Assembly (NCBI RefSeq): GCF_019649055.1
Contig: NW_026570351.1
Location: forward strand, 62,001-126,000
Reading direction: 5' to 3'
Source of the DNA: Paramacrobiotus metropolitanus
Taxonomy: Eukaryota > Tardigrada > Eutardigrada > Parachela > Macrobiotidae
Length of the DNA stretch: 64,000 nt
Shown: positions 24,630 to 62,750 of the stretch, piece by piece
Layout of the letters: every line of letters begins with the position of its first letter
How positions within the stretch are numbered: the stretch's first letter is position 1
Notes under the pieces: generated by a model
The model's input: only the letters and a program-made list of their open reading frames with translations
The model's database searches: none
Told to the model about the DNA's origin: nothing
Program-made: the position numbers and the translations under genes

Positions 24630-24840
24630 AAATCACGGCGAAATCTATTTGGAGTGTTCCACAAAATCATGTAAAACTTTCTTAAAAGCTAAGTGGTGCT
24701 TTACTGGAACCTTGTTCCTCGTTTATGCTGCGCACGCATAATTCCTCTTTGGTGGCGACACTGAGCTCGCCTACCACTTGAGACCCAAGAAGTCTTCAAG
24801 CTTGAAACTGCCTGCTGATGTTCTTCCATGTAGTCGAATA
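24630..24840 (+). promoter_or_regulatory. Conserved upstream block of the cysteine-rich family, copy before the 24.95-kb gene
   Basis: Contains AAATCTATTTGGAGTGTTCC, a diverged middle, CTCTTTGGTGGCGACACTGA and CACTTGAGA. The same ordered words precede other family members (about 29.2, 30.1, 36.1, 50.2, 58.7 and 61.2 kb). Here it ends about 110 bp before the start codon at 24950. Confidence 0.6.
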
Positions 24841-24949
24841 ATATTCGGACAGCTCAGACACTTATCAGGCTAATATAAATAACAGATTTTGCAGCGCAAT
24901 CAGCGTTAGCTATCGCGTTTGTCTTAAATAAACCTCTTTAGTGAGAAAA

Positions 24950-27045
24950 ATGGTATTTATCTGGCTTGTATTGTTATTCTCCATAATCCATGCAGAAGCA
25001 TGCCGGGAATCCACCGTTTACAGTTATGAGGTAGGAAAGTCACACTGTATTGGCAGTAAAAAGGCAGCAGACCATGATATATACACTATACGTTCAACAA
25101 GTTCTGGTAATCGCGTTAAGGCCAAAGTCCTTCCTCATAATTTTGTAATTATAAAGTTCGTTTAAAAAGCATTTAGGGCAGTCGATGCGCTGTGAGGCAG
25201 AAGCCATAAAGTTTATTTACGTCCACCAAAATTTTCGCAGTCACTCTACTGTCGAATGACCGTATACGTTACGCTGCCCCAAAAAACTTTTGCGCGTGTA
25301 AGATGCAGTACTTCTAGACTATGGAGAATGGGGTGGTGGTTTGGTTGACCTTTTACAGAATTTTAAGGACTTTCGCGTGCATCAAAACTCGGGCTAGTTT
25401 GGGATTTTTGTTTTCATTTTCCGTAAAGGTCAAATGTTTAAGAACTATAACATCGGATAATTCTGGGCAGAACGGGTTCACTGCATTTTTTTCACAGTTT
25501 CAAACTGTAAAGGACACAGGGTTACGAATATGTTTAATCGTATTTAGGGTTTTGAAATTCATTTATAAATTTTTGATAAAGGCTGCATACGGATATTCAA
25601 ATCATTTTACTGTAACGCAAAACGATACAATATGTTGAGACTGTGGAATTTTATTTGATGTTTAATTTCACTGAATATGAATTTCACTGAATATTCATAT
25701 TCAATAACAGCTTTGTCCCTTTCCTTAATGCTGCATCGACTTCTAGAATTTAGGCTAATCGGCATACTATGTTTTAGTGCATGGTTAACGCTTCGTCACT
25801 CCGCTTCGGCAGCGATAACATCCGTTTGGTCGGGGCTTTGCTTGGCCATGGCGACTGTGGCCAATCGGAGCCAAAAGTGGTAGAAACCCGGGGTGACTTG
25901 CGGGTCTTCACCGAAGCCGATATCGCGGCATCAGCAATAGTTTACCAGAAAACTTTCACGGTAAGGATTCGCTGGCGTGATTTATTTTGCTTTTGTAGCT
26001 TTTATACTAATATTAAAGATGGAGAAGTAACTTTCATTGTCACAAGAAGTGTTAAAACCTAGGAAAGAATCATGACGAGAGAGTACATTATTCCACCTTA
26101 ACTACTAACCCTGTCAGCAAAACATTATTTTGCTACAGCGATGCTTGCTTGCTGTGCTGTAGTATGACAGACTGTATGTTACGGTAACTCATTGATTATT
26201 TAATTAATTATAACATTATCCTTTTCACATTCATAATTCTGGTATAATAATGTTTCGTACTACATATAAATAGTGCCGTGTTTGCCAATGCGCAAATGGA
26301 GGTGATGCGCGACGGGACTGGCCGGATAAGCTGGATTGCATGTCCCATAACCATCCTTTGAAAAACCAAAATGTTTCCGATCTGTGCCAAAAATATGCCA
26401 TCGTTATACAGCCAGATGGTTTGACTTTGACGGCAGACACCACTACCGCTGCCATAACCACCGCCATAACGGCTGCCACAATCACAACGGCCAGTACTGT
26501 TACTCCTACTTGTGCTACTGTTGCTACCACAACAGTACCCCCCAAATCGCACAAGTCAGGTAAAGCGTTTAATTGGTCCCGGGTAGGCACTCGTATCACG
26601 CTCGCTGTCATACCTTGCAGGCAGGCCATACTGCCAAGGAATAATGGACATCGAAAACTACTGCTGTTGGCCTAGTCTGGCTGTGCTGGTCGACCTCGGT
26701 AAATGTATCCAGAAAACAGGCTGTCAAGAATGGAGATGGGAATACGGTTTTCAGAATTACACGGTGCGCAGCGGGGAAATCCAAGTGGGCGATGTCCCTT
26801 CTGCTTTCTGGGACAACCTTGATCCCGTTCTCCCATTATATTTTTATCAAGCACTAGACGGTTTCAGCAAGTGCAGTGGTGACTACAATCATTACCGTAC
26901 CGGTATCAACGATGAGCGAGGTCACCATTGTTGGGAATGCCGTGGAAAACCAAATTTCCAGGACCTGTTCAAGAAGGGATTGACGCTCCACCCTGACTCT
27001 AATCGCTACGTGCCGGGATACACGTGCCTTCCCGATCAATGTTAA
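24950..27045 (+). CDS. Secreted cysteine-rich protein, long form; exons 24950-25030, 25778-25960, 26274-26559, 26621-27045; 324 aa
   Basis: Four exons join in frame with normal GT-AG borders (phases 0, 0, 1). Exon 1: signal peptide MVFIWLVLLFSIIHAEAC, ending YSYE before GTAGGA. Exon 2: acidic segment starting CMVNASS, with FTEADIAASAIVYQKTF at its end. Exon 3: cysteine-bearing CRVCQCANGG, LDCMSHNHPLKN and SDLCQKYAIV, followed by a Thr/Ala-rich, mucin-like stretch. Exon 4: GRPYCQGIMDIENYCCW, then LVDLGKCIQKTGCQEWRW, FWDNLDPV, FSKCSGD, HHCWECRG, LFKKGLTLHPDSNRYVPGY and a final Cys. This is the most complete long-form member and the reference for the paralogues to the right. All exon ends agree with those of the paralogues at 46.5, 59.1 and 61.5 kb, which is the main support for the model. 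Secreted and probably O-glycosylated; function unknown. Confidence 0.85.
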
Positions 27046-27125
27046 ACTTAAGCTCCAAAACAACGCAGCCTCTGTTAACATTAAATTTACTGCAATTTTC
27101 AGTTGTACAACGCCTCCTTTTTTGC

Positions 27126-28554
27126 GTACGAGGACACGCTAAGTATGCGTGATAGACAAAAAAACCAGCGAGAATTAATCGAACACAATCTAATAGATTG
27201 TGTTCGCCATACACCGACGATAGACGGTCCGGTGTACGATACGATGGAACACCGTACCGTAATCATATCGTCGGTAATTTAGTGTTCGCTCTCATCACAG
27301 CCGACAAACGATAAACGTTATACGGTCAAATGTTGCCTCCGAAGTGAATCAGTTTTGGCAGTGGCAGCTGGCACTTTTGATGTGCTAAACTGCTTTTAGC
27401 TGTGAACCCGATGAAAACTAAAATTATAAATTTTTTTTCACACCAAAGCTGCTAGATTTGAGCACTGATGAGCGTTGTTATGAACATTTGAAGTTAAAAG
27501 CAGGCGTCTACGGAGTTCGAGTAAAAAGTTCGCGCTTAGTACTCCAACGACGCCGTAAGCTTTGCATGGTAAATTCAAATGGTTGCAAAACCGTTGGTTT
27601 TTGGACAAACTGCCCTCACTTGGTATCAAAAAACTTATTTTAACCTTGTCTTTCTTCTGATTCACTCCGTTCGTTAATCAAAACCATTCGAACTTATTCT
27701 GACACCTCAAAAGTTTCGTGATTTGGCACCTGTAGTCGTTCCAATCGATGCAATCGCCACCAAGAGCGGTTGCTATTTCGCAAGACTTAACGGTAAGCTT
27801 GACGATAGCTATGCTTTCTATCGTCAATCCTATCGTCAAACGGTCCGATAAGGGTACGCCATGATGACGTGCAAGAGCCTATCGTATATCGTACCGTATA
27901 TCGTAAGCATTTTTGTGCTTGCGAACACAATCTAATATGATAACCATGCCCGGTTCGTGCAACGCGGGCAACCTCCCAGGTTTGCAGTTGCTTGTAAACA
28001 CAGTAAAAATAACTGACTGAAAATTATGCAAACTTCCAACGCTCATTTCTCGTGTACTCTGGAATAGGACCATTCAACCAATATACCAGAAGACGCAGCA
28101 AAAAATAACGCGATTTTTGATACCAAATAAGTGAGAATATGCGCCAATCCAAACAGATTACAGCTATTTTCGTTTTCTCATAGACTTAGCATAGAATCCA
28201 CGCTCAAGGGTAACGTGTTCCCCACACAGACTCCTGTGCTAAGTCTACGAGAAACTCAAAAAGGCTATCATATGTCTTAATCGCTATGAACTGCAACTTG
28301 TTGGGTATCAAAAATCTTGTAGATTTTTTCTGCATCTTTTGCTACATTGGTCAAATAGTTTCGTTCCATAGCACACGAAGAATTAGAGCTGGAAGTTAGC
28401 ATACGCGTCTATGAAGACGAGCTGTTTACTACACAGTACGTGGACCGCCAACCCTTGGTGGCTGGGTGTGCTGCACAACACGTGATTGGTTATCATTAAT
28501 TCTCGCTGGTTTTTTGGTCTATCACGTACAGATATACTTAGCGTGTCCTCGTAC
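27126..28554. mobile_element. DNA element with about 55-bp inverted termini and internal palindromes
   Basis: GTACGAGGACACGCTAAGTA (27126) recurs inverted at 28535-28554, and the complementarity continues through GTGATAGAC and AAAAAACCAGCGAGAATTAA. Inside are a palindrome CGAACACAATC-TAATA-GATTGTGTTCG (27178-27204) whose left half recurs at 27920-27937, inverted ATCGTC words at 27211-27280 and 27795-27910, and a second inverted pair around ATAGACTTAGCAT/GTGCTAAGTCTAC (28180, 28233). This looks like several elements nested into one another, 80 bp after the stop of the preceding gene. No transposase frame. Confidence 0.6.
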
Positions 28555-29190
28555 TCATAATAAAAATACGCACGTTATAAAGTTTTACTCTTTTACTGCT
28601 CGTTTACAGCGAACACACCCGGTAAAACGTAAATTTGGAACCGCGGATAACCGTTTGACGCCATACAACCATATTTTAAACATACGGAGGCTGAAACTTC
28701 ATTTGAACAAGGTTATCGTTAAGTGACGAGCCCAGCCAAAATGTTCACGAAATTTAATTTCCTAATAATGTACGAAAAGGCAGTTCAGAGTTGCGGATAG
28801 GTGTATGAGTACTCTACTGTGCAGTAAATGGTTATAAAGTTCTGACAAACTTTTCAAATGTCTTTGCATCATGAGGACGGGATGCTTTGCGCCTTTGATG
28901 AGAGCAGTCGCAATGAAGACACAGATTTCAAGATATTTTTAGCAACAAACAGTGCAATGGTAGAAGGGTACCGCTGTATCGGTACCATAGAAAGAACCCA
29001 CGGTTGCCACAAGCCGCAAGTCTAAACGGGCACTGCGCTTTTTACCGATGCAGCCAGATACAGACAGTCTGTAAGTATGATTCTTTGTGCATCACTTTCC
29101 AACAGTTCGGCTTAATTATTATGGCTTGCATTGTTTTTAATGCTCAGTTACTTGCACTGTCGGCAGTTTTTGGTTATAGAAATCGCCGAA
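28555..29190. other. No gene recognised
   Basis: I see no conserved frame or repeat in this stretch, other than that it ends at the orphan upstream block starting near 29195. Confidence 0.35.
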
Positions 29191-29194
29191 TTAT

Positions 29195-29420
29195 AAATAC
29201 ACAATGAAATCTACTTGGAGTGTTCCCCAAATTATATCAGTTATAAGTGGGAAATTACTGGAATCTGCTAGGTCATTTGTGCTACACACACAGGAATCCC
29301 CCTTTCTAGCGAATGGATTTCTCTAGCCACTTGAGATCCCGGAAGATTTTAAGTGTAAAACTGGAAAGTACCGACATTCTTCCACGAAGTCGACTAAGAA
29401 TCCGGCTGCTTACTGTAGAT
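29195..29420 (+). promoter_or_regulatory. Orphan copy of the family upstream block
   Basis: GAAATCTACTTGGAGTGTTC, then GGAATCTGCTAGGTCATTTG, then CACTTGAGATCC and ACATTCTTCCAC follow the same order as the block before the 24.95-kb gene. No signal-peptide exon of the family follows within 700 bp, so this is probably the remnant of a lost copy. Confidence 0.6.
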
Positions 29421-30130
29421 ATTCCGAAATTTTGTTGAGTTCAGGATCGGCGACAGCACTTCATACCAGTTTAGTCTCTCTATAATTGCAAGTGAATCAA
29501 TTTTCATATAATTATCTGTATTTATTACTAGAAATTGTATATTTTCTCCTTCGCGTACGATTTTAAATATCTGTATTATAACTTGCCTCCAGTGCTTTAC
29601 AACTTTACATTATGCTGTTCTACTGCTGGTGTTGTGTGGCTAAAGGATGACATGTTGTGCCAGCATGATTGTTTGTGCAGAATGTAGGAAGTACTGTGAA
29701 GTATGAACACACTAGCAATATTCCATGTTATCTCGCAAGGTGGTGCTTTTTCTTATTGCTGTATCGTGAAAAACAAACGCTTCAAATATGAGAACCACCA
29801 CAAAAGCATCCTGGATGTTCTTTTTTAAAACTTCAACCTTTCAGCGTCGTTGCAGTGTTGGAATGTCCCAGAATGTGTGTAGAGGGCCTTATCTTTTGTA
29901 AAATTGTTAGTTAGCCTTCTTATGACCATCAAATATGCCGCATTGGACAAAATTACTTGTAAAATGTACAAGCAAAACTCGTGAAAAGTCTTTATAATGA
30001 AAATACTTTCGGATGATTCGGATAATTATGCCCTGTATTAATAGTATGCTTTGATTTATTTTATTATTTTTATATCGAGCATTCTTTTGCGGTATCAGCA
30101 TTCGCAGTTTCAACAAAAATAAGGCAGAAT
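29421..30130. other. No gene recognised
   Basis: AT-rich, no conserved frame. It contains fragments resembling the distal part of the upstream block (ATAAGCATACAACGAAATTT at its right edge). Confidence 0.35.
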
Positions 30131-30330
30131 TATAAGCATACAACGAAATTTATTTGGAGTGTTCTGCAAATTGCGTACAGTTCCAAGAGGTGTAACTGGC
30201 AGTTTAGTGGAAATTTAGAGGACATTTGTGCTGCAACGGCAAAATTCTATTTTAGTAGTGGCGATCGAAACACTTAACACTTGAGATCTGTAAGTTATAC
30301 AGTAGGTATGCAGTAAAGTAAATGCGTTCC
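30131..30330 (+). promoter_or_regulatory. Family upstream block before the 31.0-kb gene
   Basis: GAAATTTATTTGGAGTGTTC, GGAAATTTAGAGGACATTTG, TAGTGGCGATCGAAACACTT and CACTTGAGATC match the other copies in order and spacing. It is separated from the start codon at 31038 by the 564-bp foldback at 30399-30962. Confidence 0.6.
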
Positions 30331-30398
30331 GCCAGGAATTATGTGAAAGGCTTAAGGGGATCACTAGCAGTAGAAAGCGGGTTTGGGAAAACGGGAAT

Positions 30399-31037: not shown

Positions 31038-31777
31038 ATGGGATTTATCTGGCTTTTTTTGCTGTTATCGCTAACGTATCTGGGCATCACAACACAGCAG
31101 TCCATAACGCATAAATCAGGAAAGTCGTTTAACTTGTCGGTGATCTACGTTTGAATCTGTATTGTTAAGTGTGTTTTTACTGGTGGCCTATGACAAAATA
31201 CAGGGTTTTCTCAACGTACTGAATGTTTTGTTCTTCGTAGTTTGTACTTCTAATATTTGATACTTCATTAAGTAAATCGAATCGTATTTTCTTCTCATCC
31301 GGTGTGCTCATCGGTTTGTTTAACAGATAGTTATTATATCTTGCAGGTCTACCATACTGCGAGGGAATAACGGACATCGACAACTACTGCTGTGTGTCTC
31401 TGGCCGTGCTGGTCAACAAAACTGAATGCCTGCAGAAAGCAGGCTGTAAAGGGTTCAACTGGGACGTGGATCCTGATTTACCTGAATATCCAAAGGTTAC
31501 CGCTGCGCAAGTGGAAGTGAGTGATGTCTCACCGGCTGCTTGGGACGCTCTGGACGCAGTTTCCCTGTCACTTTTCGAGGACGGAAGGAGAGCTCTGGAT
31601 GGATGCAGTGGAGACTTCAGTCCACCACTTCGGTACAAGGAGCGCTGTGAGCGTTGTCGTAATAATCAGTTCAATTTCCTGAGGCTTTTCCACAGAGGGC
31701 TTACGAAGCTGGGTAGAGGATACGGAGACTACGCGAAAGCACGCAAGTGCCATCCGAATATTGACTACTGTCCTTAG
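31038..31777 (+). CDS. Secreted cysteine-rich protein, short form; exons 31038-31119, 31347-31777; about 170 aa, abnormal donor
   Basis: Exon 1 encodes a signal peptide (MGFIWLFLLLSLTYLGITTQ) and ends ...HKS. Exon 2 starts after TTATATCTTGCAG, phase 1, and encodes the C-terminal cysteine domain: GLPYCEGITDIDNYCCVS, NKTECLQKAGCKGFNW, AAWDALDAV, LDGCSGD, RCERCRNN, LFHRGLTKLGRG and a final Cys-Pro. The long-form acidic and Thr-rich exons are absent, as in the 50.5-kb gene, whose exon 1 has the same 82-nt length. The expected donor reads TCAG|GAAAGT instead of TCAG|GTAAGT, so the GT is lost. Either splicing uses a non-consensus site, this copy is newly disabled, or the base is an assembly error. 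All coding frames are otherwise open. Confidence 0.7.
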
Positions 31778-32507: not shown

Positions 32508-33623
32508 CTAGCATGGTCCATAGCAAGATGTGTTATAAGAAAACACCGAACCCACGCGTGCGCTATTGTACGTCAAATTACGGGCACAATCCACACTGAG
32601 CACTGCGGGCGCCAGTTTGATGGTATTAACAATCGGTGTGCGATAGTTCCCCACAACCGACACCTCGCCTTCCTCTTTACCGTCCGTAAGATAAGGTCTC
32701 CGCTTGAGAAAATTGCGGAACCACGCCAACGAGCAGTCACAGTGGATGCGGCGCACTTTCTCAATGTCCGCATCGGTCAGTGTGACCATCTGTTGCCGTC
32801 TCGGCGGGTTCGGATATTCCTGGATTCTGCGTAGTTCGTACACAATTCCATCTTCCAGTACCAGGCTATCCAGGTGCAGCAAATCGGTGAAAGTGTACTC
32901 TTCCAATGTTTCGATAGTAAACATGTAGAACGTGATCATCCGGACCGCCGGGATGCGTGCGAAGTCCCGCTTTTTAATTACCATATTGAAGCAGTTCTCC
33001 ATGCGCAGCCGCACTAGATTTGGCAGCGGTCCGGCATCGTACAGTTTAGCGGTGGTGATCGTTGTGGCGCATTTTTCTATCACCAGGTCGATCACCTGGT
33101 GACGCACAGGATCCATGACGTCATGATGCAGAAGATCTTCCATATCCGCGAACTCCCTTACTTCCAAGGTTACAGCGCGGTTGGGACTGGTGATCTTGAT
33201 GTTCTTGGTTACTTGAGCAAAGTTTGTGCGGTTCGCCCACGCACACCCAGCTCTTAGATACGTTCGCGAAAACAATGGGTAACTTAGGGAGTGGTCCTCG
33301 TCGCATTCTTGCACCATAAAAACCGGATTGCAAAGAATTGTCGAGTTCTTACTAAAAGCAAGATACGCCAGACACTCCGCTTTGGTCAGGTTGTCCGTGC
33401 GAAAAGCGAATGGGGCCGGCACAACCGATGCGTCAAGAGAAGCACTGGGTTGCGTTACTTTGTGGCAGTCCACTTCAAGATCCCCAACATTAGTGGCAAC
33501 TTCTCTGAAAAACATTGTCTTTTTACGGCAGTCATGCTACAGTTAATGGTTTTCTTACCTGAAACTACGGCACCAGGCAAAGCAAAACGAAGCAATAACA
33601 GCAGAAATATGCAATAAATTCAT
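32508..33623 (-). CDS. Secreted LRR-like protein, two exons (33623-33559, 33504-32508), 353 aa
   Basis: Exon 1: signal peptide MNLLHISAVIASFCFAWC, ending TTTCAG|GTAAGA. Exon 2 begins after TTTTTCAG in matching phase (Arg split 2/1): REVATNVGDLEVDCHKVTQP. The N-terminal cysteine region has TKAECLAYLAF and CNPVF, then SPNRAVTLEV, DPVRHQVIDLVIEKC, and leucine-rich units LPNLVRLRMENCFNMVIKKR and YTFTDLLHLDSLVLEDG. The cap follows: HCDCSLAWFRNFL, LSVDCARNLTYNSAR, FSYNTSCYGPC. Close relative of the gene at 10.9-12.0 kb and the intact counterpart of the pseudogene at 12.97-14.04 kb. Secreted, no membrane anchor. Exon 1 is only moderately hydrophobic, so signal cleavage is inferred. Confidence 0.87.
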
Positions 33624-34152: not shown

Positions 34153-35535
34153 GGTAGCACGACAACTCTGTGACCTTCATTTCGCTGCCCGACAGTTTGA
34201 TGACCGACTTGTTGCTGACTACCACAACTTGCTGACCGACAAATCGCTGACCGACAGTTCGCTTTTTTACAAACTGGCTGACCGACATCTTGCTGAAACT
34301 AATTTGCTGAACGACATCTTACTTGTCGGTCAGCGAAATGTCGGTAATCGACAACTCGCTGACCGACAACTTGTAGAAGACGAAAACTTGCTGAGCGACA
34401 ATTCGCTGACCAGTTCAACGCACATTAGCGATATTTACGCGAAAACTAGAATCTTCGTTGGTTTCGCAAAAAGGAAGCAATAGTATGATAGTTATGACTG
34501 AAATATAACCTTTTTTGCCATTTATTACGGCGTATTAAGTTAACGAGTATGTTATCGTCTCAGCCAGTATTAATTATTTATTAATAACTGTTGAAATGTT
34601 TTAATAATTACACCCATTTCTTAGGTTTCCTAGGTTTCTTAGGTTTCTTTGGTTTCTTAATTTTCTAAGGTTCTTTTAGGTTTCTTAGGTTTCTTAGGTT
34701 TCTTAGGTTTCTTAGGTTTCTTAGGTTTCTTAGGTTTCTTAGGTTTCTTAGGTTTCTTAGGTTTCTTAGGTTTCTTAGGTTTCTTAGGTTTCTTAGGTTT
34801 CTTAGGTTTCTTAGGTTTCTTAGGTTTCTCAGGTTTCTTAGGTTTCTTAGGTTTCTTAGGTTTCTTAGGTTTCTCAGGTTTCTCAGGTTTTTTTGGTTTC
34901 TTAGGTTTCTTTGGTTTCTTAGGTTTTCAGGTTTTTGAGGTTTCTTAGGTTCCTAAGTTTTTTTCTGTTTCATAGGTGTTTTATGAAATTCAATCGTACG
35001 CGCTCACAGAAAAAAGGAGAAATGGACGACTGGAATGGTCAGATTGCTGCATATGCCGGCAGCTGTTAATAACAGGAGAATTGGTTGTGGTATCCGATCA
35101 TAATCACCCAAATTGAGGGTACCGTTGAGAGAGCGGAAATGTTTAATCGACTATTGTTTCTTAAAATGTTTTTAAAACGTGTTTAGGTGAAGGTATGAAA
35201 TAAAAAACGCGTGATTAAAAAATTGAGTTTCACAAGGATTTGATGGGTAACAAATTAAATTTGTGGTCAGCGAGTTGTCGGTATTTTCATAAAACGTCTG
35301 CCAGTAAAACGTCGGTCAACAATTTAGTAAGGAAGCAAATTGTCGGGTAAGCATTCTGTCAGTCAGCAAAATGTCGTCAGCAAATCGTCGGTGTCAGCGA
35401 ACTGTCGTTCAGCAAAATGTCGTTCAGCGATTTGTTGTTTCAACAAACTGTCGGGTCAACATTTTGTCGGTCAGCAAATAGTCGTCAGCAAGTTGTCGGT
35501 CAGCAAGATGACCGTCAGCGAGTTGTCGGTGTGCC
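34153..35535. mobile_element. Inverted-array element: GACCGACAA ends, (TTAGGTTTC)n core, 9-bp target duplication
   Basis: The left 270 bp are an array of TTGCTGACCGACA-like words, and the right 260 bp carry the inverse (TGTCGGTCAGCAA). Between them, 34622-34990 is a run of about 35 copies of TTAGGTTTC. The ends read GGTAGCACGACAACTC and, reverse-complemented, GGCACACCGACAACTC. ATTTTACCT flanks both sides (34144-34152, 35536-35544), a perfect 9-bp duplication. There is no transposase. The AT-rich stretch between 35000 and 35270 has no recognisable content. Confidence 0.88.
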
Positions 35536-45615: not shown

Positions 45616-45983
45616 TGCAATCAAGTGCTTCCGCAATATGAAACTGAATTCTATCAGCTATTGTAATCTAGAAGCAAATACCCAACTGTCAATAAAAATT
45701 TTTGGCAGCCGTTATGATTTTGTAGATTATAGCACAGAAATTAAAAAGGCAAAGCATGGTAAACATAAACCGCTTCTCTGTTTGAACTGCTTGAAAATTG
45801 ACAAATACTTTTCGACCATCTAAAGACTCCCCGATGCCTTTTGGGCCAATACTCGCCAAGCCTCTATGCCGGTGACGGTATTATGGTGATTAGGTAACGG
45901 TGATGCGTTGGCTCTCTTCAGTTTTTTTTTTCTCACAGCGATCTGGTTTTGTTGCTGCTTTCAGCTAAAAAGATAAAGATCAA

Positions 45984-46256
45984 GTAAAGAAAGTGCCACA
46001 GGCTTCCTGGGACACACTTGATCCAGTTTCCTCTGATCTTCTTGATCTAGCAGTAGAAAATTTGGATCAGTGCGCTGCGGAATATCATCGGAACAGTACC
46101 GGTATCAACAATGACGAAAATACCCATTGCCGGGGTTGCCGCGGTAAATCGACTTTTCTGCACTTGTTCAGAAAAGGATTGACGTTCCGTCCTGACTCTC
46201 ATAGCTTCGTGCCAGGAAACACGTCACTTCCCGATACATATTTTTCACTGACTTAA
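45984..46256 (+). pseudogene. C-terminal half of a cysteine-rich family exon
   Basis: The frame reads VPQASWDTLDPV, LDQCAAEYHRNSTGINNDEN, HCRGCRGKSTF, LFRKGLTFRPDSHSFVPGN, then diverges and stops at TAA 46254-46256. It matches the second half of exon 4 of the 24.95-kb gene. The first half (PYC...NYCC) is absent, and upstream DNA is unrelated. It is a 5'-truncated fragment, perhaps the other half of the relic ending at 36428. AATAAA signals follow at 46260-46275. Confidence 0.7.
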
Positions 46257-46549: not shown

Positions 46550-48118
46550 ATGGTAATATTTTGGCTCTTGTTGCTGTTCTTGTTAGCGTATGCGGAAGCA
46601 TGCCAGACATCCACCGCTTACCGTTACGAAGTAAGTCATCAGTCTGATTCTGTCATAATAAATACACCCTGAACATTTTGTCCTGTATCCCGTTATCCCG
46701 TTGAGCTTAAAGTGTGCTCTGACACGTTTATATCATGGAGTTTATTCAGATTTCCTTTTTGCTAACTTACACTTGCGAAGGGCCATTAGCATAAGTACTG
46801 CCTGGATATATAATATGGTATTTTATTGCGTAATGTTGTAGTGTATGGTTCACAACAATGAAAAATACGACAGCGACATGGCCCGTGTGCTTTCGCCTTC
46901 GTTCAGCAGTCCAGGCTGCGTTTTACGGGATGCAACACCGGTAGTACAGAACGATGAACGGCGGGTTTTCACCGACGTGGATATCGAGCACTCTACAGAG
47001 ACCACACTCCATCACATCAATTACACCGTAAGATATCTTTTGACTATCGTTTGTACTCGAGCCTTAGAAACTCAGGAATTCCAAAATTCCCAGGCATTAC
47101 GTAACATAACACCGCCGCTAAAATGGTTAGTTCAGAACATTATTGTATAAACGCTAAAGAAACGGCGCAAGTAGGGCACTAATGAGTTTTCGAAAATTTC
47201 TTAGCTACACGGTTTTTCGCTTTGCGAGATTTTGTACTTTAATAATTCGAGCTTTACCAAACATTAGTGTCATTTTTTGCGCCTTGATGACCTTTGCGAC
47301 AGTTTCATACTGATAATAGTGTCCAGTTTGCCACTGCCTATATGGAGACAATGCACCTCGACACCCACAAGAGAAATTGGATTGCTTGTCAAAGAAACAC
47401 GCCTTGACCAATTTGACCGATCTGTGTCAACAGTATGACCTCGTTCTGCCGACAGTCCATTTGTCGACAGACAACACTGCCACCGAAACTTCCACTACGA
47501 CTACGACCACCACGCCTGCCACTACCACAACTGCGGGCACTGTTACCTCGACTTGTGCCACAGTGGCCGCCACAACTGTGCCCACTAGAAAGCACCGTTT
47601 AGGTATGCAAGCGTTTAATTTGCTCTCAGGCTGACACTATTATCACGCTAACTATCATATCTTACAGGCAAACTCTACTGTGAAGGAATATTGACATTGA
47701 AGACTACTGCTGTTGGCCAAGTTTAGCCGTGCTGGTTGACCTCGGTAAATGTATCCAGAAAGCAGGCTGCCAAGGTTGGATATGGGATAACCAATTTCAG
47801 AATTATTCGGTGCACAGCGCGCAAAATGAACTGAGCGAACTCCCACGTGCTTCATGGGACAACCTGGACCCAGTTTCCCCTTTATTTTTCTATCAAGCAG
47901 TGGACGGATTTAGTCAGTGCAGTGGAGATTACCATCAGTACAACGGTACGGGCGGTACCCACAGTGAGCGCAGCACCCATTGTCGGGTTTGCCGTGGTCA
48001 ATCGAGTTTTCGGAACTTGTTCAAAAAAGGATTAACTTTTGATCTTAACACTGGCCGCTACGTGCCAGGATACATGAGTCTTCCTGATCATGTTAAAACA
48101 AATTCAACACAATTTTAA
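46550..48118 (+). pseudogene. Cysteine-rich protein, long form, four exons with a 1-nt deletion at the start of exon 4
   Basis: Exons 46550-46630, 46842-47027 and 47320-47602 are intact: signal MVIFWLLLLFLLAYAEAC, acidic exon CMVHNNEKYD...HHINYT, and exon 3 CPVCHCLYGD, DCLSKKHALT, LCQQYDLVL followed by a long Thr-rich tract. Exon 4 (47668-48118) has GKLYCEGI and then lacks one base relative to the 24.95-kb gene (35 versus 36 nt to the NYCCW codons), so the normal splice runs into TAG. The rest of exon 4 is open in the shifted frame (LVDLGKCIQKAGCQGWIW to LPDHVKTNSTQF). An internal AG at 47701-47702 would restore the frame (starting DYCCW) at the cost of one Cys. This copy is therefore either freshly broken, rescued by an unusual acceptor, or affected by a sequencing error. 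AATAAA at 48295-48300. Confidence 0.65.
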
Positions 48119-50523: not shown

Positions 50524-51482
50524 ATGGTGTTTATTTGGGGATTTCTGCTTTTGTCGCTAACGCATGTGACCACCACAATGGGCCAGCCTGGCAGGCACCC
50601 GTCAGGTAAGGTTTTACCTTGTTGAAACATTCGAATAACCTTTAATGACAACGATACTGTATTATGTTATGTATTGCTTGCGAATCGGTGATCATGATAA
50701 TGTTGTAGGTGGTCTACAGTGCGAGTGTTTCTTTAAATTACTATTCGTTATGCTGGAGCAATTAATTTTGGTGTTAATGCGACTTAATACAGTATGATCA
50801 GTAAATGTTATTATGATGATCAGTGATCAATGATATATTATTAATTATATTACGGTGCTTTGTATCAATGTCCCCTGTGGCTGTACAAGCCACCGGCTGC
50901 ATTTGAAACACAATACTATTGCCAATACACAGCAATTCAACCCACTCGTTAATAAACCGGTTGGATGGCTATGTACTCGCTGGCCAGTTTGTCTTTGTAA
51001 AACAGTATAATTAGCGACTACCACTCCTTTCAGGTAAACCATATTGTGATGAGATACATGATATCAATAACCATTGCTGTGTGAGTCTGGCCCTGCTGGT
51101 CAACTTTGGCCCTGAAGCATGTATCCGGAAAATTGGCTGTAAAGGGTACCATTGGCCAATCGAGAATCACCTTAGCAATCTTGGACTACCATCGGTTACC
51201 ACTGCCGAACAAGAAGTGGGCAAAATCCCGCAGGTTTCCTGGGATTCTCTGGAGCCAGTGCACTATTTGGTTTTTCAAAAAGCTGTAAATGCTTTCAAGC
51301 AATGCAGTGGAGAACTCGAGGCTGACCGTCGCTGGGATCTAAAATGGCAATGTATCCCATGCAGAGAAGAATCAAGTTTCGTGAACTTATTCCACAAAGG
51401 GTTAACGTTGTCTAGCAACGAGTCTGCTGGCTTTGTGCCAGCAAGGACATGCGACCCGAATTACGGATGTTCAGTGCCATAA
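50524..51482 (+). CDS. Secreted cysteine-rich protein, short form; exons 50524-50605, 51034-51482; 176 aa
   Basis: Exon 1: signal peptide MVFIWGFLLLSLTHVTTT, ending CGTCAG|GTAAGG. Exon 2 follows the acceptor CTCCTTTCAG, phase 1: GKPYCDEIHDINNHCCVS, NFGPEACIRKIGCKGYHW, VSWDSLEPV, FKQCSGE, QCIPCREES, LFHKGLTLSSNESAGFVP, ending CDPNYGCSVP. All frames are open and both splice sites are canonical, so this is the best intact short-form member. The linker exons found in long-form members are absent between the two exons. An AATAAA signal lies at 51743. It sits between the broken long-form copies at 46.5 and 52.7 kb. Extracellular; function unknown. Confidence 0.87.
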
Positions 51483-52735: not shown

Positions 52736-53093
52736 TCTGACTCGCCTCCAATGCCCGTGCAGCGCTATTCGGCAGTGACCGACGGGTCTTGACCGACGTG
52801 CGTGAGATATCAGCACTCTACGGGGACCAGTCTCCATCACATCAGATACACCGTAAGACACTGCCACCGAACCTACTAGTACGACCACCACTACCGCAGC
52901 TGCCACTGCCACAACTGTAAGTATTACTGCTCCTTGTGCCACTGTGGTCACCATATAGTGCCGGCCAAAACGCACAAATTAGGTAAAGCGTTTAGCTGGT
53001 ACCAAGTTGGCACTGGTACCCTCCTCGATATCCTACCTTGCAGACAAACCCTGCTGTCAGGGAATAATGGACTTCGAAGACTACTGTTGCTGG

Positions 53094-53332
53094 ATAGTGC
53101 ATGATCAGTGCATGACTGACGTGCGTTCTGGAAGTATCCAGAACGATCTGGATATGTGATGTCAGACTATTGATTTTTGCGCAGCTGCGCTGCGCTGTGG
53201 CAGTATATATGGTGTCGGTTGTGCTAGCGCAGAGGAGGCTCCTCTGATCATTTGAATAAAATGCCGGCGCCGAGTCCCGTTGTGTAGAGCGTATATACAT
53301 ACGTTGATTTATATGGGGCGAGCCGCCCGCAC
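53094..53332. mobile_element. 239-bp insertion with TGG on both sides
   Basis: By comparison with the 46.5-kb paralogue, the insertion falls exactly inside the YCCW/PSLAVL codons. Its boundaries show a 3-bp direct repeat (TGG). No terminal inverted repeat is evident. Confidence 0.6.
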
Positions 53333-53374
53333 TGGCCAAGTTTAGCTGTGCTGGTTGACCTCGGTAGATGTATC

Positions 53375-53634
53375 AAGGCGACCCGCCAGGCGTCTACGAA
53401 AATTCGTCGACCGTCACTTGTTGAACAGACACAATGTCGACCCGTCACGACGTCGAACTAACGTTTAACTAATCCACCTCAGTTTTCTTAGCTTCCTTAG
53501 GTTTCTTAGGTTTTTTAGCTTTCCTATGTTTTTGACATTCTTAAATTTCTTAGTTTTCTTAGGTTTTTTATTGTCGCCCTCGTGACGATCGACGAAGTGC
53601 GGTCGACGAAGTGTTAGTCGACGAAATGTCGGTG
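53375..53634. mobile_element. Small inverted-array element: TTCGTCGAC ends, TTAGGTTTC core
   Basis: The interruption is exact relative to the paralogue (GGTAAATGTATCCAG). AGATGTATC (53366-53374) and AGCTGTATC (53635-53643) flank it, a 9-bp duplication with one difference. The left end carries TTCGTCGACCGTCAC, the right end its inverse (GGTCGACGAAGTG and TAGTCGACGAAATG). The centre has CTTAGGTTTCTTAGG words. Confidence 0.75.
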
Positions 53635-54589
53635 AGCTGTATCCAGAAAACAGGCTGCCAAGAACGGCTCTGGAATAGTCCGTCTCTGATTTATTCGGTG
53701 CGCAGCGCGGGAAGTGAACTCATCGGCGTCCTACGTGCTTGTGGGGACAATCTGAATCCATTTTCCCCTTAATTTTTCTATCGAGCAGTGGACGGTTTTA
53801 GTCAGTGCAGTAGAGATTACCATCAGTACAATCCCGGTACGGGCGGTACCCACAATGAACGCAGCCCCCATTGTCAGGTTTGCCGTGGTCGATCGAGTTT
53901 CCGGGCCTTGTTCAAAAAAGGATTAACGTTTGATCTTAACTCTGGCCGCTACGTGCTAGGCTACATGAGTCTTCTTGATTATGTTAAAACAAATTCAACA
54001 CAGTATTAGTCTGCACTCTGTTGGCCGTCCATGTGTACTGCAAAGCTACATATGTATGAATGTATGAACATATGTATAAATGAATATTTGAATGCCGTTA
54101 GCCCTGTCTACCTTTGTTCTAAAACGAATAGAAACACAAACTTACCATATACTGTAGTCTTCACCGATCTTGGGACGATAACAATCAAAACAACTGAGTT
54201 CACTAAACAACACTTACTGTATTTAGTGTTACGTTCCCTGACAACAACTGAGACAGTGTATATGAGAACTGTTAGGTTTATAATTCGGTGTATCGTAGGG
54301 CTTACGTTTAATTTTTTATCGTTCCCACTCTGCACGGATTCAACAAAACACAATAGAAGCCAACGTCGAAACGTCGGCAGAATTTTCTGCCGCCCGAACT
54401 TTTTATGTGGTCAAACCGCTCGCCGAATTCTTACGGTGTATGTTGCTTATTGATACACGAACAAGTGCACTTTTACATATACTAACCAAAAATCAAAGAT
54501 TAGCGGGCCGATATACAGGAAAATAGAGATAATGTTCCAAAATTAGTCCGCGCACTGGAAAGCGATTGATACGCAACCGCACATCGGCA

Positions 54590-56359: not shown

Positions 56360-57685
56360 TCAAACTTTTGAAATGGAAAATCGTTTTTTACCAAGATGGG
56401 ATTCTTTGCATCTTTGATTATAGCAGGATGTGTTATACGAGAAATCGGAACCGGCATCAATGTTATGAACGTTCAACTTCTTTGCACAGTTCACATTCAA
56501 AACGGACCGTTTGCTCCAGTCTTTGAAAAAGCCCGGTATGAAATTCTCAGTATTATAATTGTCTACATCTTGTGTTCTCTCAATGAGATGCGGATTAGCT
56601 CGCAGAAAATTCCGAAACCATGCAAATGAACAGTCGCAGTGAAGACGTGTGATTCGTTTGATATCATTGTCCATTATGGAATCTGAGTGGGTAAATAAAG
56701 GATTACCCGTTGGTTTGTGTTTCAACAGCAATCGTATCCAGCCTTCCAATCGTAAACTCTGAAGGTTTGGCAGATTGGTAAAAGTATACGGCTCCATGGT
56801 GTCAATAGTCGCTGCCCCGAACTGAATAATGCGCAGTTGTTGCATGTTCTCAAAATCTTTTCTCTTGATGACCAATCCCCAACAACCCATTATGACTAAA
56901 TAGGGAAAATACCAGCCGCACTAAATAGGGAAAACTGCCCGTTTTGTATATTTTTGATGTAACCGTTTGTGTGGCACATTGGTTAATCGTCAATTCAATC
57001 AACTGGTGGCGAATCGGTTCGAAAACAATAGGATGAAGCGGATCCGTTGGGTCGTACTTTTCGTCCAGGTTTATAATCACCGCTCGATTGGGACTTGTGG
57101 CTTTCAGTTGTTTGGCCATTGCCGTCATGAAGGTGCGGTTTCGTTGTTGGCAGTTAAGCGCGATGAACGTTCTGGACATGGCTCCGTAGCGGAATTCCTC
57201 ACCATTGGTTTGCTGGCATATTTGGGCGGATCTGCCAGGGTCATACATGCAACTTGTGGGTGTTGTGGTGTACACTGTGCATTCTTTCCTCGTTAAAGTG
57301 TCCGTGCGAAACGGGAAAACCAGCACGCGGGATGTTTTGTTTGGTAAAGAGTGGATAGTGTTATCAATTGGTGGGTCACTGCAGTCGGTTTCCAGTTTGT
57401 CGGGTGCTGCTATAAGGGACGAAAAAGCCATTTCGGACTTAGCTTAAGGTTTACGGAGCGCTAGTAAATTATTATGCGATATACAGCTGTTTGGAATATG
57501 TACAGCTACTTGAATGTATGTACAGCTGTATATACATAGCTGTATATGAATATATATGACACATACATATGTGACATATACATATTTCAAATTCCACGCA
57601 GGCACGCATATTACGGCCTACCTGAGAATGCCAAATGGTTGTGAACAAGTCCGCTAATGCAAAGTAGTAAAATGAAAGACGCCAT
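56360..57685 (-). pseudogene. Secreted LRR-like gene with a local insertion breaking exon 2
   Basis: Exon 1 (57685-57622): signal peptide MASFILLLCISGLVHNHLAF, ending TTCTCAG|GTAGGC. Exon 2 (57409-56360) joins in phase 1: AAPDKLETDC, then TRKECTVY, SPNRAVIINL, EPIRHQLIELTINQC and GSFPYLVRLV. At 56895-56934 the word TTTTCCCTATTTAGT occurs twice, 25 nt apart, and the frame shifts there. Beyond it the family frame resumes with GLVIKRKDF, MEPYTFTNLPNLQSLRLEG, LHCDCSFAWFRNFLRANP, LNVNCAKKLN and FSYNTSCYNQRC, plus a C-terminal extension of about 14 residues not seen in the others. Everything except this one small insertion is intact, so the break is recent or a sequence error. Confidence 0.8.
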
Positions 57686-58739
57686 AAGTACCGGTATTAT
57701 TTTTCGCTAACCGGCCTGGTATTTAGGCAGAAAAATTCAAGAATTAGCATGTAAAGGGCATACAGATAATCATAATCAGTTCACATAAAACAGCTCGCTT
57801 TTTTTAATTTCTGTAAGGCGTGCTTTGAAACAATACCACGAGGTACACGAACATCTGTACTGAAAAGTCGGGCCGTATCTCAGACAGTATTTTTCCCGAA
57901 GGCTGTGTTCGAATTAAGTGACTGGAGCTCGGCTAAAACTCTGAACAGTCTAGCAACATAGAAGAAGGCAACGGTGACTGTTACTCGTAATACGATTCTT
58001 ACCAACATTTTGGCCTGGAAAATCGAGGAAAAGGCTCGGAGAAACTCTGTATTTTCATAAAATACTTTGCGCCTCGAGCTAAGCTATGTACTTCACAAAG
58101 CTATAAATAATTGTCACAGTAACTCGTTCATCTCTACAGATGTCTATGTCTATGATTGTTTCTATCTCTGTCCCTTAACTAAATCTTCAAAATCTGCAAA
58201 GCTGTAGAGCAATTATATATTGTGGCAGTGCTAAATCACATAATTAGCTGTTCTTGTACACGTGAGACGCCGAGACCCTAATTATTGCAATTCGTACAAT
58301 CGATTATTGAAATTAATACTAGCTGGGTTTGTACAACTTTTTCTTATACGAAATCTTGATGTAAGAAAAGTGAAGACACTTGCGCATAGCTTTGACCATA
58401 ATAAATGACCAACAAACTTAATTGTTAGCCAATGAAACAAAAAGAGTTCAACAGGTTGCCGTCAATTTTTAGGTACAAACAAAAGTTTATTTATTGAAAA
58501 ATCCATATGTTTCGTTCCACTTCGCAAGCTCGCTGATTGTGCCACGAGGTAAATGAAACTCCGTAACTGTTTGTCTGCGGCAGGTCTGAGGTCTGGTTGG
58601 CAGCGGCAGCGGACTTTCGAATAGTTTTAACGGTTCGGCTTGTTATGACTTGTGATATATCTTTTCTATAGCACTTGTGTTCGCTTTTAAATTTTTCGCT
58701 GCAAAATATATTTGAAGGTTTTCACTGTTAATACTTCTC
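57686..58739. other. Intergenic; contains a transposon-like terminus near 58370-58420
   Basis: TTGCGCATAGCTTTGACC at about 58380 matches the terminus of the 7.35-kb element (GCGCATAGCATTGACC). The opposite end was not located. TATACATAGCTGTATAT-type palindromic AT words occur at 57520-57600. Confidence 0.4.
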
Positions 58740-58990
58740 GCTGCAAAATGTAATTGGAGTGTTCCGTAAACTGTATAAAACTTTACGAAGTATAAGTGTC
58801 ATTTTACTAGAAAAGTGTAACACATGCGTGTCGCACCAGCAAATTTTTCTCTAGTTGGTGGCGACTGGAAATTTTTATCACTTGAAATCCGTTTTTTTAA
58901 ATGCAAAAGTACTGAAGCAAGCAAATACCGGCATTTTATCACTACGAGTTACGAGGATATTCATCGCGCAGCGCGAACACTTTACAAGCT
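58740..58990 (+). promoter_or_regulatory. Family upstream block before the 59.1-kb copy
   Basis: AATGTAATTGGAGTGTTCCG, TTTACTAGAAAAGTGTAACA, GTTGGTGGCGACTGG and ATCACTTGAAATCCG follow the common order. Confidence 0.6.
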
Positions 58991-59075
58991 TCAACACAAA
59001 TGACAAATTTCACAGCGAAATTATTGCCTCTTACGTCGTATTTTTTTTAAATACAGTAAACCATCGTAGGAGAAA

Positions 59076-60579
59076 ATGGTATTTATGTGACTTTTATTGC
59101 TTTTCCCGTTAACGCATGCGCAAGAGGTTTGGGATCCCGCTACCTACAGATACGAAGTAAGTCATGCGTAAAACAGAATGCTGTGATTTTATTGAAGATC
59201 TAGTGAACCATTTGAATTGTTTCTACTTTAAGTTTGTTTGAAGTCGGGTCTGAAAACATTTTGTTTGTTACACCGAGCTTTGAAACGATCGGAGTAGTAA
59301 ACGACCCTTCCTTGCACGATAATGCATTCCCGCTTTTTGTTTTCTCGTATTTCTATTCACGGATATTATGCAAAACGGTTCCTAGGCAAACATAGAAAAT
59401 CAGTTGGTTACGAAATAACAATAAAACAATGCATAAAACGTGCGGGATGGTGCATAAAAGCATAATTTTTAGTGTGTATAAGGTACTTCAATTTGACTCG
59501 TTAGCAGCAATTCCCTTAAATTTTCGCTCTGTTTAGTACCCGTATGGTATTTCGGCGACAGTCAGAGAAACGATAATCTCGATGTTACCAATGTCTTCCT
59601 TGTATAAAAACGATTGAGAGTTTAAAAGCAAGTAATTACTTACGTTATTCGCAGAAACAGTGCGTTTCAACGTTGTTGCAATATTCAGTTTCAGTTTCAT
59701 CGCATGATGTTTTAGTGTATAGTTAACGCTTCATCGTCCAATTTTGGCAACGACAGTTCCCATTCCTTCCTTTCATTATCTGGCAGTCCCCAGTGCGATA
59801 AACCGGTAATAGATTTAGTGCCTAGTGACGATGACTCACTGGCCTTTCCCGATAAGTATACATATAAGGAGTTTTATGCTACGCTACCGCATTAATTACT
59901 CGGTAAGAGATCACTACAAATTTTGTATGCTCTTTGTAAAAGCGATTATTAATAGTGCCCAGTTAACTTTTGCCTGCCTCCTCGGTTGTATGGAAATTCC
60001 CAGCTGCACAAGCCACAGCAGAGATTAGACTGCATATCTCGGAACCATCCTTTGAGAAATATGGAGCAGGATTCGTGCCGTATGTTTGAGCTCTTGCTGC
60101 CAGCTTCGTTTCTGCCGCTCAGTACTCACAAGTCAGGTGATGGTTCTAACTATTGGACTCGTAATCGGAGATGAGCAATTCTGATCACTAACTGCTCGTA
60201 AAACAGTATTCTGTCTGCTTTTGCAGATCAACCATACTGCAACGGAATAAACGAAATTAAGCCATACTACTGCTGTTCGTCTCCTGTTTCGATGCTGATC
60301 CAAGAGGCCGGCTGCCTCAGGAAAACCGACTGCAGATGGTGGAATCTTTCGGACAAATCTGGAAAAACGACAGTGAAGCGAGGGGAACATCGGGTGTTGA
60401 ATAAAATCGAACCATATGATCCGGACGAGGAGGACTGGGACAACATGAGTGTAGCTTCAGCTTCATTTTCTGACTCAGTGCTAGGCAAAATACGAGAATG
60501 TGAGCGCAGAGTGACCTCTGTGAAGGAAGATATCAAGAACTCGTTCAGAGATCTTGTTCGAAGTCATCAAAATGGATGA
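59076..60579 (+). pseudogene. Long-form cysteine-rich gene with a stop in the signal peptide and a frameshift in exon 2
   Basis: Exon layout as in other long forms: 59076-59156, 59716-59902, 59956-60136, 60227-60579. Exon 1 reads MVFM, then TGA where relatives have TGG (MVFIW), then LLLLFPLTHAQ. Exon 2 is 187 nt, not a multiple of three, and its last codons (YRINYS before GTAAGA) are out of frame with its start (CIVNASSSNFGND). Exons 3 and 4 are open: CPVNFCLPPR, LDCISRNHPLRN, DSCRMFELLLP, then DQPYCNGINEIKPYYCC and LIQEAGCLRKTDCRWW. Exon 3 lacks the Thr-rich stretch. The last 80 residues are divergent, highly charged and lack the CSGD/CRxCR cysteines. All splice sites are canonical. Confidence 0.8.
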
Positions 60580-61219
60580 AAGTTCGCTTGGGCAAAATCC
60601 AGGACGAATTGTTATGCAGTTATCGTAAATCTAGTTATTAATGTTTATCTTTATAAGATGCAGAAAATACCCATATTTCGCGCTGGGAAACAATAACGAT
60701 AGGGATGAAACTTTTGTGATTGTTTTCACAAAAAAGACCTGCAAAATCGACTTCTGTCTCATTGTCGAAACTGACTTGGTACTGTTTAATGGCAGTAATA
60801 ATGATAAATTTATTGCGTTCGTTCGACGAGTCCGTGACCTTTACAGCGATGTATAATGAACAAAGTACACGATGGATATAGAGAACATAATATTTTTGCG
60901 GGCAAACATTCAGAATACTTGAGCGTACTGCTCTTTTTCAGCAGTCTTTGCTGGATAAAATACCGCGAGTTGAATATAATTTGCGTTCTTTTATTGCGGT
61001 AATTGGGGACACAAGCATTTAACTGCAATGTTTGGCCTTCCTTTTAAAACCGAAAGGCTCTGAAAACAGCTGAAAACAGATGGTTTGGTTTTGGTGGCAC
61101 GAGGATTTCGTAATGGCTTAACGGTTCGGTTTATTATGAGCGGGAATAATACTGCAATTTTCTTGTAGTACATACAGATACTGTGTGTTATCAACGTTTA
61201 ATGCAGCGAAGCTCGTAAA
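60580..61219. other. Intergenic, nothing recognised
   Basis: No conserved frame was found between the two family copies. Confidence 0.35.
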
Positions 61220-61470
61220 ATTAAAAATGTAAAGCGAAATAATTAATTCCATGAATTGTAAGTAGCATTTACTGGAAGCAAATAGCCGATTTGTACAGCG
61301 CTTGCAAATTTTTGCAAATTACTTTCTTGGTTAGGGGCGGCTGAAGAACTTTACCACTTGAAATCCGTACGGCTTTTAGTGCAAAATAATAAAAAAACCG
61401 ATACTGTCATTCCTTCACGAACCCGAATAGCAATCGGGCATCTGGAATGCTCAAGAGGGTGCATGATAAA
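61220..61470 (+). promoter_or_regulatory. Family upstream block before the 61.5-kb copy
   Basis: AAAGCGAAATAATTAATTCC, AAGTAGCATTTACTGGAAGC, TAGGGGCGGCTGAAG and CCACTTGAAATCCGTACGG. More diverged than the others in the GGAGTGTTC segment. Confidence 0.5.
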
Positions 61471-61546
61471 TGGCGAATTTCACAGCGGAATGATTACTAT
61501 TTGCGTTTTTCTTCAAAAAAAGCTTTGTAGCAGACCTGTAGAAATA

Positions 61547-62750
61547 ATGACATTTATTTGGCTTTTACTGCTCTCTCCGTTAACATACGCGGAAGAAACT
61601 ATGAATTTAGCTGTTTACAGCTACGAAGTAAGTCATTCGTTAAACTAAACTGGGCTTAACATTTTGTACTTTGTTACAAGATCTCGCTGATGAGGTTAAA
61701 TTTAAATTTTCCTTTGCCTACCTATATGCTATAAATTTGAGCAAAACAGTCTTTGAAGTTAAAAAAGCACTTAGAGCTGTGTGGAATTCAGTGTGTGGTG
61801 TTTCAGTGTATGCATCGCGCTTCTTATTTCAAGTTCAACGGTGAGTGGTCTAATCCGCTCTACCCAACGGTCTACCCAGCTATTTCTGACCAGCGTAACC
61901 CCATTCCCAACTGCGTTAACTCAGTAGTCAATGATCTAAGGAAGGATAATGACCCGCGGGCCTTTTCCGATGTAGATTTTAGACTGCTTTACCACATACA
62001 TTACACGGTAAAGTATTGGTAGATGAATTGTTGGCCAAATCAGTTCTGTCACTTACCATACAGTCACTAGTTTAATTGTTAACGTCAAAACGAAGCAAAG
62101 GAATAAGGTAGAAGACTGGAAAACTAAATAAGCGCCTCCGATTGTGATTGGTGCGTGTGTGTACATTCTGAAACACTCTGTGATAATTTGCCGTAAATAA
62201 CAGTGCGAAGTTAGTCACTGCCTCAATGGAACTTACGAGCAACAGACGCCTCAACGCAGACTGGATTGTATATCTGAAGACCATCCTCTGAAAAAACAGG
62301 AGGACCTGTGCCGCATGTACGAGGTCGTGCTGCCAGCTGCGTTTCTGCCGAACAACACCTCTGCTCACAAATCAGGTGAGGCGCTGATACGAGGGGATGT
62401 CAGTAGCGTACTTAAATGATCCCTGTGCTTGCTGTGGTCACCCGGCTGGAGTGTGACGTTGCGGCAGTACATATGGCTAAATCTCTTGCGCGTTACATAT
62501 GCACCATGTCCACAATGTCATACTCCAGCCGGGTGACGACAGTACGTACAGGGATTATCTAGGTGCGCTGCTGACATCCCCTCTTATATGTGGGATACCA
62601 AAATCAGAATTTTGAGATTCAAAAATAAGTGGTATACACGTTTGCAGGTCGGCCGTACTGCAACGATGTAGAAGTATTAACGGTAAAGGTAAAGATCTGT
62701 ACCAGTATGGTGCATTACATTACTGTTATGGCCTAACAGTAAACTCATTA
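61547..62750 (+). CDS. Cysteine-rich protein, long form, 3' truncated; exons 61547-61627, 61807-62007, 62204-62375, 62648-62749
   Basis: Exons 1-3 are open with canonical sites: signal MTFIWLLLLSPLTYAEETMN, exon 2 CMHRASYFKFNGEWSNPLYP to RLLYHIHYT, exon 3 CEVSHCLNGTYEQQTPQRRL, DCISEDHPLKKQEDLCRMYE. As in the 59.1-kb copy, exon 3 has no Thr-rich stretch. Exon 4 starts correctly after TTTGCAG (GRPYCNDVEVL) but departs from the family after about 12 codons and stops soon after, so the C-terminal cysteine domain is missing. Either an insertion near 62690 pushed the domain beyond the window, or the copy is truncated. A palindromic MITE lies in intron 3. Confidence 0.6.
62391..62583. mobile_element. 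Palindromic MITE in intron 3 of the 61.5-kb gene
   Basis: GAGGGGATGTCAG and CTGACATCCCCTC begin arms of about 70 bp (also CACCCGGCTGGAGT/ACTCCAGCCGGGTG). Core about 50 bp. No coding content. Confidence 0.8.

Follow-up and report, generated by a model that had tools for sequence, protein, structure and literature searches.

What are the cysteine-rich, secreted-looking genes that crowd one region of the genome of the tardigrade Paramacrobiotus metropolitanus, and how did long and short forms of them come to stand side by side? The region is a stretch of 64,000 nucleotides of the RefSeq assembly GCF_019649055.1 (contig NW_026570351.1, here C131), C131:62001-126000, which we call the window; coordinates below are window positions unless a contig is named. 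We consider it moderately probable that the genes are a decaying branch of a family that encodes disulfide-rich extracellular proteins and evolves through tandem birth and death, in which the short form arose by internal deletion. The evidence comes from the window copies, their relatives elsewhere in the genome and the splice phases that join their exons.

An earlier reading made from the letters alone (hereafter the sequence-only reading) had counted about nine copies, including relics, sharing one C-terminal domain. Pieces of exon 4, which encodes this domain, recovered seven domain loci in the window by tblastn (at about 26.6, 31.3, 46.0, 47.7, 51.0, 53.0-54.0 and 60.2 kb), and the domain of the copy named gene A matched the window loci at E values between about 1e-55 and 5e-5. 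At 61.5-62.7 kb an eighth locus retains exons 1-3 and a stub of exon 4. Thus the shared domain was borne out, and the total came to eight, two of them intact. The distinction between long copies, with extra exons between signal peptide and domain, and short copies without them was also correct: four loci (24.9, 46.5, 59.1 and 61.5 kb) have such exons, whereas at 31.0 and 50.5 kb the signal-peptide exon lies just 227 and 428 bases 5' of the domain exon. The copies are as follows.

24950-27045, forward strand: gene A, intact long form, 324 amino acids with 19 cysteines; exons, GT-AG sites and open frame were read directly.
24950-25030, 25778-25960, 26274-26559 and 26621-27045, forward strand: exons 1 (signal peptide), 2, 3 and 4 of gene A.
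31038-31777, forward strand: gene B, short form; fused exon 31038-31119, domain exon 31347-31777.
45969-46253, forward strand: partial domain exon, a relic holding the second half of the domain only (tblastn, hmmsearch).
46550-48118, forward strand: gene C, long form; exon 1 46550-46630, exon 2 46842-47027, exon 3 47320-47602, exon 4 from 47668.
50524-51482, forward strand: gene D, intact short form, 176 amino acids with 10 cysteines; fused exon 50524-50605, domain exon 51034-51482.
53010-54009, forward strand: domain exon broken into three pieces, a relic (tblastn, hmmsearch).
59076-60579, forward strand: gene E, long-form relic; exon 2 from 59716, exon 3 59956-60136, exon 4 60229-60579.
61547-62733, forward strand: gene F, long form lacking a functional domain exon; exons 61547-61627, 61807-62007 and 62204-62375, stub from about 62648.

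The two loci that read intact are genes A (long) and D (short), both with GT-AG sites, and the others are damaged by a frameshift, a truncation or a bad splice site. The domain of gene B is open, but GAAAGT stands at its donor position, and no phase-1 GT was seen by eye from there to the in-frame stop, so that this gene may not splice. Gene C has open exons 1-3 and a frameshift early in exon 4 (near 47.7 kb). In gene E a stop codon interrupts the signal peptide, exon 2 is broken and exon 4 is truncated. Single-base damage in the window copies could in part be assembly error, because the assembly is nanopore-based and polished, as its report describes (PMC8277472).

To what does this cluster belong? 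In the genome assembly of 169.8 Mb and 533 contigs, tblastn with the domain of gene A gave at least 15 matches, and three divergent members used as queries gave at least 31, 28 and 29. When the hits of the four queries were merged at 1,100 bases, at least 35 domain loci were left on five contigs (at least 20 on C1, 8 on C131 including 7 inside the window, 4 on C69, 2 on C97 and 1 on C176); scoring was confined to the best candidates, which makes every one of these counts a lower bound. The domain of gene A matched loci on C69 and C1 at tblastn E values of 1.7e-10 to 2.7e-3, and a profile of the window domains gave six hmmsearch hits in the C1 and C69 loci L001-L005 (E 4.5e-15 to 5.5e-9). A homologous C-terminal domain is common to the window copies and the genome-wide four-exon family. 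Outside the window its consensus is roughly GRPYC-DG-...-HPCC-PPLM-V-DK--CLQKV-CGTR-E...W...AWDRL...C-N-T...QC-RCKA...LY--G, from which the window branch departs; five cysteines, one tryptophan and one glycine are conserved at 90% or more over 27 domain rows. Upstream of the window, a long-form copy near 35 kb of C131 (L021 1633-2400) has exons 2-3; no domain appeared for it among the tblastn matches of gene A, and none was seen in the 1.2 kb after its exon 3.

In a tree of exon 4, built without the 46 kb and 53 kb window fragments, five window copies formed one group (support 99/96), with E60k on a very long branch. Constraint at the protein level is evident in exon 4: the ratio of nonsynonymous to synonymous change (dN/dS, NG86) was 0.21-0.63 in the 22 most similar pairs, with dS above 1 in some of them, and these values appear to fit coding sequence under moderate purifying selection. 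Among these pairs, two broken window copies gave 0.47, and gene A against the broken gene C gave 0.27. As far as the alignments and the tree allow us to judge, the window cluster is one derived, minor, decaying branch of a larger family of putatively secreted cysteine-rich proteins.

How are the genes of this larger family built? Profiles of the upstream exons were seeded with a few loci and iterated over the fetched sequence, which makes their support partly circular; among the 20 loci L001-L020, hits at E 1e-4 or better were found for exon 1 in 12, exon 2 in 17 and exon 3 in 18. L006 and L016 matched none of the exon 1-3 profiles, and some loci had been fetched at a length that leaves no room for exon 1. 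With phases 0-0-1 imposed, a splice finder gave complete, plausible four-exon models for 8 of 17 outside genes (g1, g3, g5, g6, g7, g8, g12 and g18). Its automatic picks were wrong for g2 exon 3, g9 exon 2, g10 exon 3, g11 exon 4, gene A exon 2 and the frame of gene F exon 1, and g4, g14, g16, g17 and g19 remained partial; wrong or partial outside models do not enter the count of complete ones, and A and F were mended by reading. The modelling left out, for example, genes in L013, L014, L016, L018 and L019 and second copies in L010-L012 and L015. A phase-free splice test covered 16 outside genes together with A, C and F. The top-scoring donor was in phase 0 for exon 1 in 14/15, in phase 0 for exon 2 in 17/19 and in phase 1 for exon 3 in 18/19, while the top acceptor was in phase 0 for exon 2 in 16/19, in phase 0 for exon 3 in 14/19 and in phase 1 for exon 4 in 11/17. 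Within the window, the exon-1 and exon-3 donors of A, C and F agreed in three of three genes each. The four-exon long form with phases 0-0-1 appears, from these predicted junctions, to be the norm outside the window branch.

Gene A has the same layout when read by eye, with phases 0-0-1 and a cysteine opening both exon 2 and exon 3. Its exon 1 ends at the donor GAG/GTAGGA (the slash marks the junction), exon 2 lies between the acceptor TTTTAG/TGC and the donor ACG/GTAAGG, exon 3 lies between AAATAG/TGC and CAG/GTAAAG, and exon 4 follows TTGCAG/GC. After its opening cysteine exon 3 runs into a threonine-rich tail, and exon 4 carries the C-terminal domain and the stop. In C and F the surviving exons follow phases 0-0-1 by reading and partly by the splice finder. 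A short open frame in intron 1 of gene A (25569-25655, forward strand) matches the iterated outside exon-3 profile at E 2.9e-6, possibly by chance or as an exon relic.

These phases bear on how the short form could be made. The sequence-only reading had held that the linker and domain acceptors are alike in phase 1, and that exon loss or alternative joining would therefore keep the frame. The first part stands for the junction of exons 3 and 4, but in long genes exon 1 has a phase-0 end; the second part finds no support, since an exon 1 ending in phase 0 joined to an exon 4 beginning in phase 1 shifts the frame in long genes, as the phase-free donors indicate. Skipping exon 2 alone would be frame-neutral. 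If long genes also made short proteins by skipping exons 2-3, short and long would be regulated isoforms of one architecture. The signal peptides of short and long genes are indeed alike, and a phase-1 serine-glycine donor closes the fused exon of gene D just as it closes exon 3 of gene A. We regard such isoforms as highly improbable, because of the phase conflict just described, because the short genes hold a genomic fusion with exon-3-like sequence, and because the window has one intact long gene only.

The fusion is visible in the first exon of the short genes. Alignments of these exons were judged against 500 single-base shuffles, and where several partners were tried the best is given, with no correction for that choice. 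Exon 1 of the long genes aligns with the start of the fused exon of gene B at scores of 34 (A), 30 (C) and 27 (F), each reached by 0/500 shuffles, and the end of that fused exon together with 20 bases of intron aligns with the end of exon 3 and the intron of A (score 30, 0/500). In gene D, the end of the fused exon with 8 bases of intron finds its match in the 35 kb relic of C131, at the end of exon 3 (score 28, 0/500). Both fused exons have 27 residues ahead of the split glycine. Moreover, tblastn with exon-2 and exon-3 queries found nothing at 27-31 kb or 48.2-50.5 kb of the window. Since the short genes carry a fused exon with an exon-3-like end, they would be separate genes made by deletion and not splice products. 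A single deletion running from within exon 1 to the close of exon 3, with a later duplication, is the simplest account.

On this basis we propose the following history. The ancestral gene would have had four exons in phases 0, 0 and 1, encoding in order a signal peptide, a short exon opening with a cysteine, a cysteine-rich exon and a C-terminal domain with paired cysteines; the third exon would also have opened with a cysteine and ended in an acidic or threonine-rich tail. New genes would be born by tandem duplication and would die by frameshift, truncation or splice-site damage. The short form would have come about when an internal deletion fused mid exon 1 with the final bases of exon 3, so that the signal peptide came to lie immediately 5' of the domain with the phase correct.

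Several results weigh against this history. In the phase-free test the exon-2 donors agreed in only one of the three window genes, C and F being the two exceptions, and the exon-2 and exon-3 acceptors assigned to gene A were not top-scoring. Because the phase-free picks disagree there, the middle splice sites of the window genes rest on reading and homology. When the window branch was compared with the other branch by hhalign, exon 3 reached a probability of 0.1%, and exon 2 reached 12% through an 8-residue tail alone (E 0.0024); the outside exon-2 profile reached window exons at E 0.8 or worse. As no profile alignment joins them, homology of the middle exons between branches rests on order, phase and the leading cysteine, and this layout alone argues for a possible common descent. 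Either the middle exons of the two branches diverged past recognition, or they were replaced with the splice phases kept. As for the fused exons, the other four exon-3 partners of gene B had 3, 41, 42 and 397 of 500 shuffles reaching the score, and those of gene D had 10, 35, 69 and 162; the alignments of gene D with three exon-1 partners were weak (11, 124 and 8 of 500). Nor does the exon-4 tree group B with D, as D stands nearer A and C with weak support (61/55), so that two independent deletions are possible. A single origin of B and D was neither shown nor rejected (clade of B and D, p-AU 0.395). Finally, AlphaFold, given eight window pieces, reached a mean pLDDT of 41, a useless confidence, with a hint of a hairpin followed by a long helix.

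Is the domain a familiar one in disguise? The sequence-only reading had not recognised the family, and our searches agree with it, giving no convincing match in Pfam, NCBIfam or PDB. Pfam returned no family for five window domain pieces, and none for four spliced full-length relatives and exon 3 of gene A. With 27 aligned domains it returned four families (best E 0.0062) and with 13 aligned exon-3 pieces three families (best E 0.0026), each in one member (cut-offs not shown). We took these as chance because each touches one member only: CDtoxinA, DUF5550, Zn_Tnp_IS91 and a chitin-synthase domain for the C-terminal domain, and BSD2_CRD, DUF5399 and DUF7296 for exon 3. NCBIfam gave nothing for three proteins. 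Profile searches of PDB reached at best E 0.28 (27 domains), 7.7 (exon 3) and 0.42 (six window domains), and a single-sequence search gave no hits; the candidates (thioredoxin reductase, a viral E2 protein, apolipoprotein A-I, a translocation-pathway protein and scytovirin) were all above E 0.2 and were rejected. Conserved paired cysteines and CxxC motifs are frequent in extracellular folds, and they count, like the hint of a hairpin and a long helix at its useless confidence, in favour of a known secreted family (a protease inhibitor, a lipid carrier or an enzyme) that has diverged past sequence recognition. The lack of a convincing match in the three databases speaks against such an origin, which we hold as possible though not the probable case.

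Relatives in other organisms were also sought. An alignment of eight domain relatives gave 37 pattern matches in viral contigs and 56 in bacterial and archaeal genomes, none of them confirmed, and we rejected a horizontal origin accordingly. No description of the family was found in the literature searched, most subscription journals being outside its coverage. A male-biased role was also looked for: male-biased genes are reported to be concentrated on 29 scaffolds (PMC11191345), and the accessible part of that report names no such family and uses scaffold names that could not be mapped to C131. Our guess is that the family is restricted to one lineage.

What might these proteins do? The hydrophobic N-termini probably act as signal peptides and would lead the proteins to secretion, where the cysteines are expected to form extracellular disulfides; the genes are presumably expressed. 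The C-terminal domain may be the functional unit or active module, as the one part that the short form retains and that can be recognised in both branches, and exons 2-3 may be a spacer or a second module that can be dispensed with. To our mind, binding outside the cell is the most likely role, perhaps in defence, gut or gland secretion, or reproduction. Alternatively, the proteins could be structural components of cuticle, egg shell or mucus, O-glycosylated on the threonine-rich tail of exon 3. Such a tail is found in A, C and the 35 kb relic of C131, and a glycosylation-type site C-x-N-x-T in 17/21 non-window domain rows. On the other hand, the exon-3 tails outside the window are largely acidic and not threonine-rich (13 rows, L010 having some threonine and proline), and the short form is almost wholly without the tail. 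We therefore consider a structural role rather unlikely compared with binding.

A second group of genes is interleaved with the cysteine-rich family both in the window and on C1. They encode intronless, secreted-looking proteins with an end like the C-terminal part of leucine-rich repeat (LRR) proteins. In the window they are as follows, with an astacin open frame that continues into such a region listed last.

32508-33536, reverse strand: intronless LRR-like gene.
10919-11914, reverse strand: intronless LRR-like gene.
4063-5430, forward strand: intronless LRR-like gene.
12980-13975, reverse strand: broken LRR-like gene.
56417-57443, reverse strand: broken LRR-like gene.
8128-9432, forward strand: astacin metalloprotease domain (Pfam E 5.6e-33) whose open frame runs into an LRR-like region, fusion-like.

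Genome-wide, 122 LRR-like matches were listed, some of which are pieces of one gene, and all six listed on C1 start at 3,256,395-3,298,423, within the C1 cluster of the cysteine-rich family. Two of 43 LRR clusters lie near loci of that family, against 0.20-0.42 expected under uniform placement (P 0.017-0.067 by distance, in a post hoc test), which is suggestive at most of clustering mildly above chance. It would be a long shot to propose that the cysteine-rich family (at least 35 loci) and the LRR-like family (122 matches) together form a tardigrade-specific extracellular recognition system for defence or gametes, one that keeps its C-terminal domain and splice phases constant as its N-terminal exons undergo replacement or rewriting. 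The remaining features of the window are the following.

16780-17241, forward strand: open frame with a Pfam match to DUF6623 (E 3.9e-10).
647-1510, reverse strand: open frame with zinc-knuckle-like cysteine motifs, gag-like, probably a retroelement remnant.
22220-22902: GC-rich tandem repeat with an 82-base unit, 8.3 copies and 96% matches, open in several frames on both strands.
34617-34977: 9-base tandem array of 40 copies, forming long low-complexity open frames on both strands.
7559-7826: 9-base tandem array of 29 copies.

Finally, how does the family compare with known systems? SAHS (secretory heat-soluble) proteins of tardigrades are of the fatty-acid-binding-protein type, with a beta-barrel and few cysteines, unlike the cysteine-rich, four-exon family of P. 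metropolitanus; the two are set apart here by this general description and not by comparison of sequences. They are alike in being secreted, multicopy and from tardigrades, SAHS being a tardigrade-specific secreted family that is named in PMC5531438 and PMC11191345. With our family, an animal group rich in unannotated genes gains an uncatalogued secreted family whose exon grammar is clear, and the fused exon would be a clean example of a one-module secreted protein cut from a longer gene by a deletion that preserves the splice phase. Should expression data link the family with cells of gonad, gland or defence, these genes would become tractable loci for that tissue in a laboratory tardigrade. 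More generally, the nearest counterparts are uncatalogued lineage-restricted families of secreted cysteine-rich proteins that evolve by tandem birth and death. The present family resembles them in its signal peptide, many cysteines, tandem arrays, many pseudogenes, moderate dN/dS and lack of a convincing Pfam match, and differs from them in its four-exon layout, with phases 0-0-1 in most readable genes, and in a derived two-exon form whose exon 1 is fused to the end of exon 3. It is a real, uncatalogued secreted family whose general kind is familiar, and the fusion behind its short gene is neat, though of an ordinary evolutionary sort.

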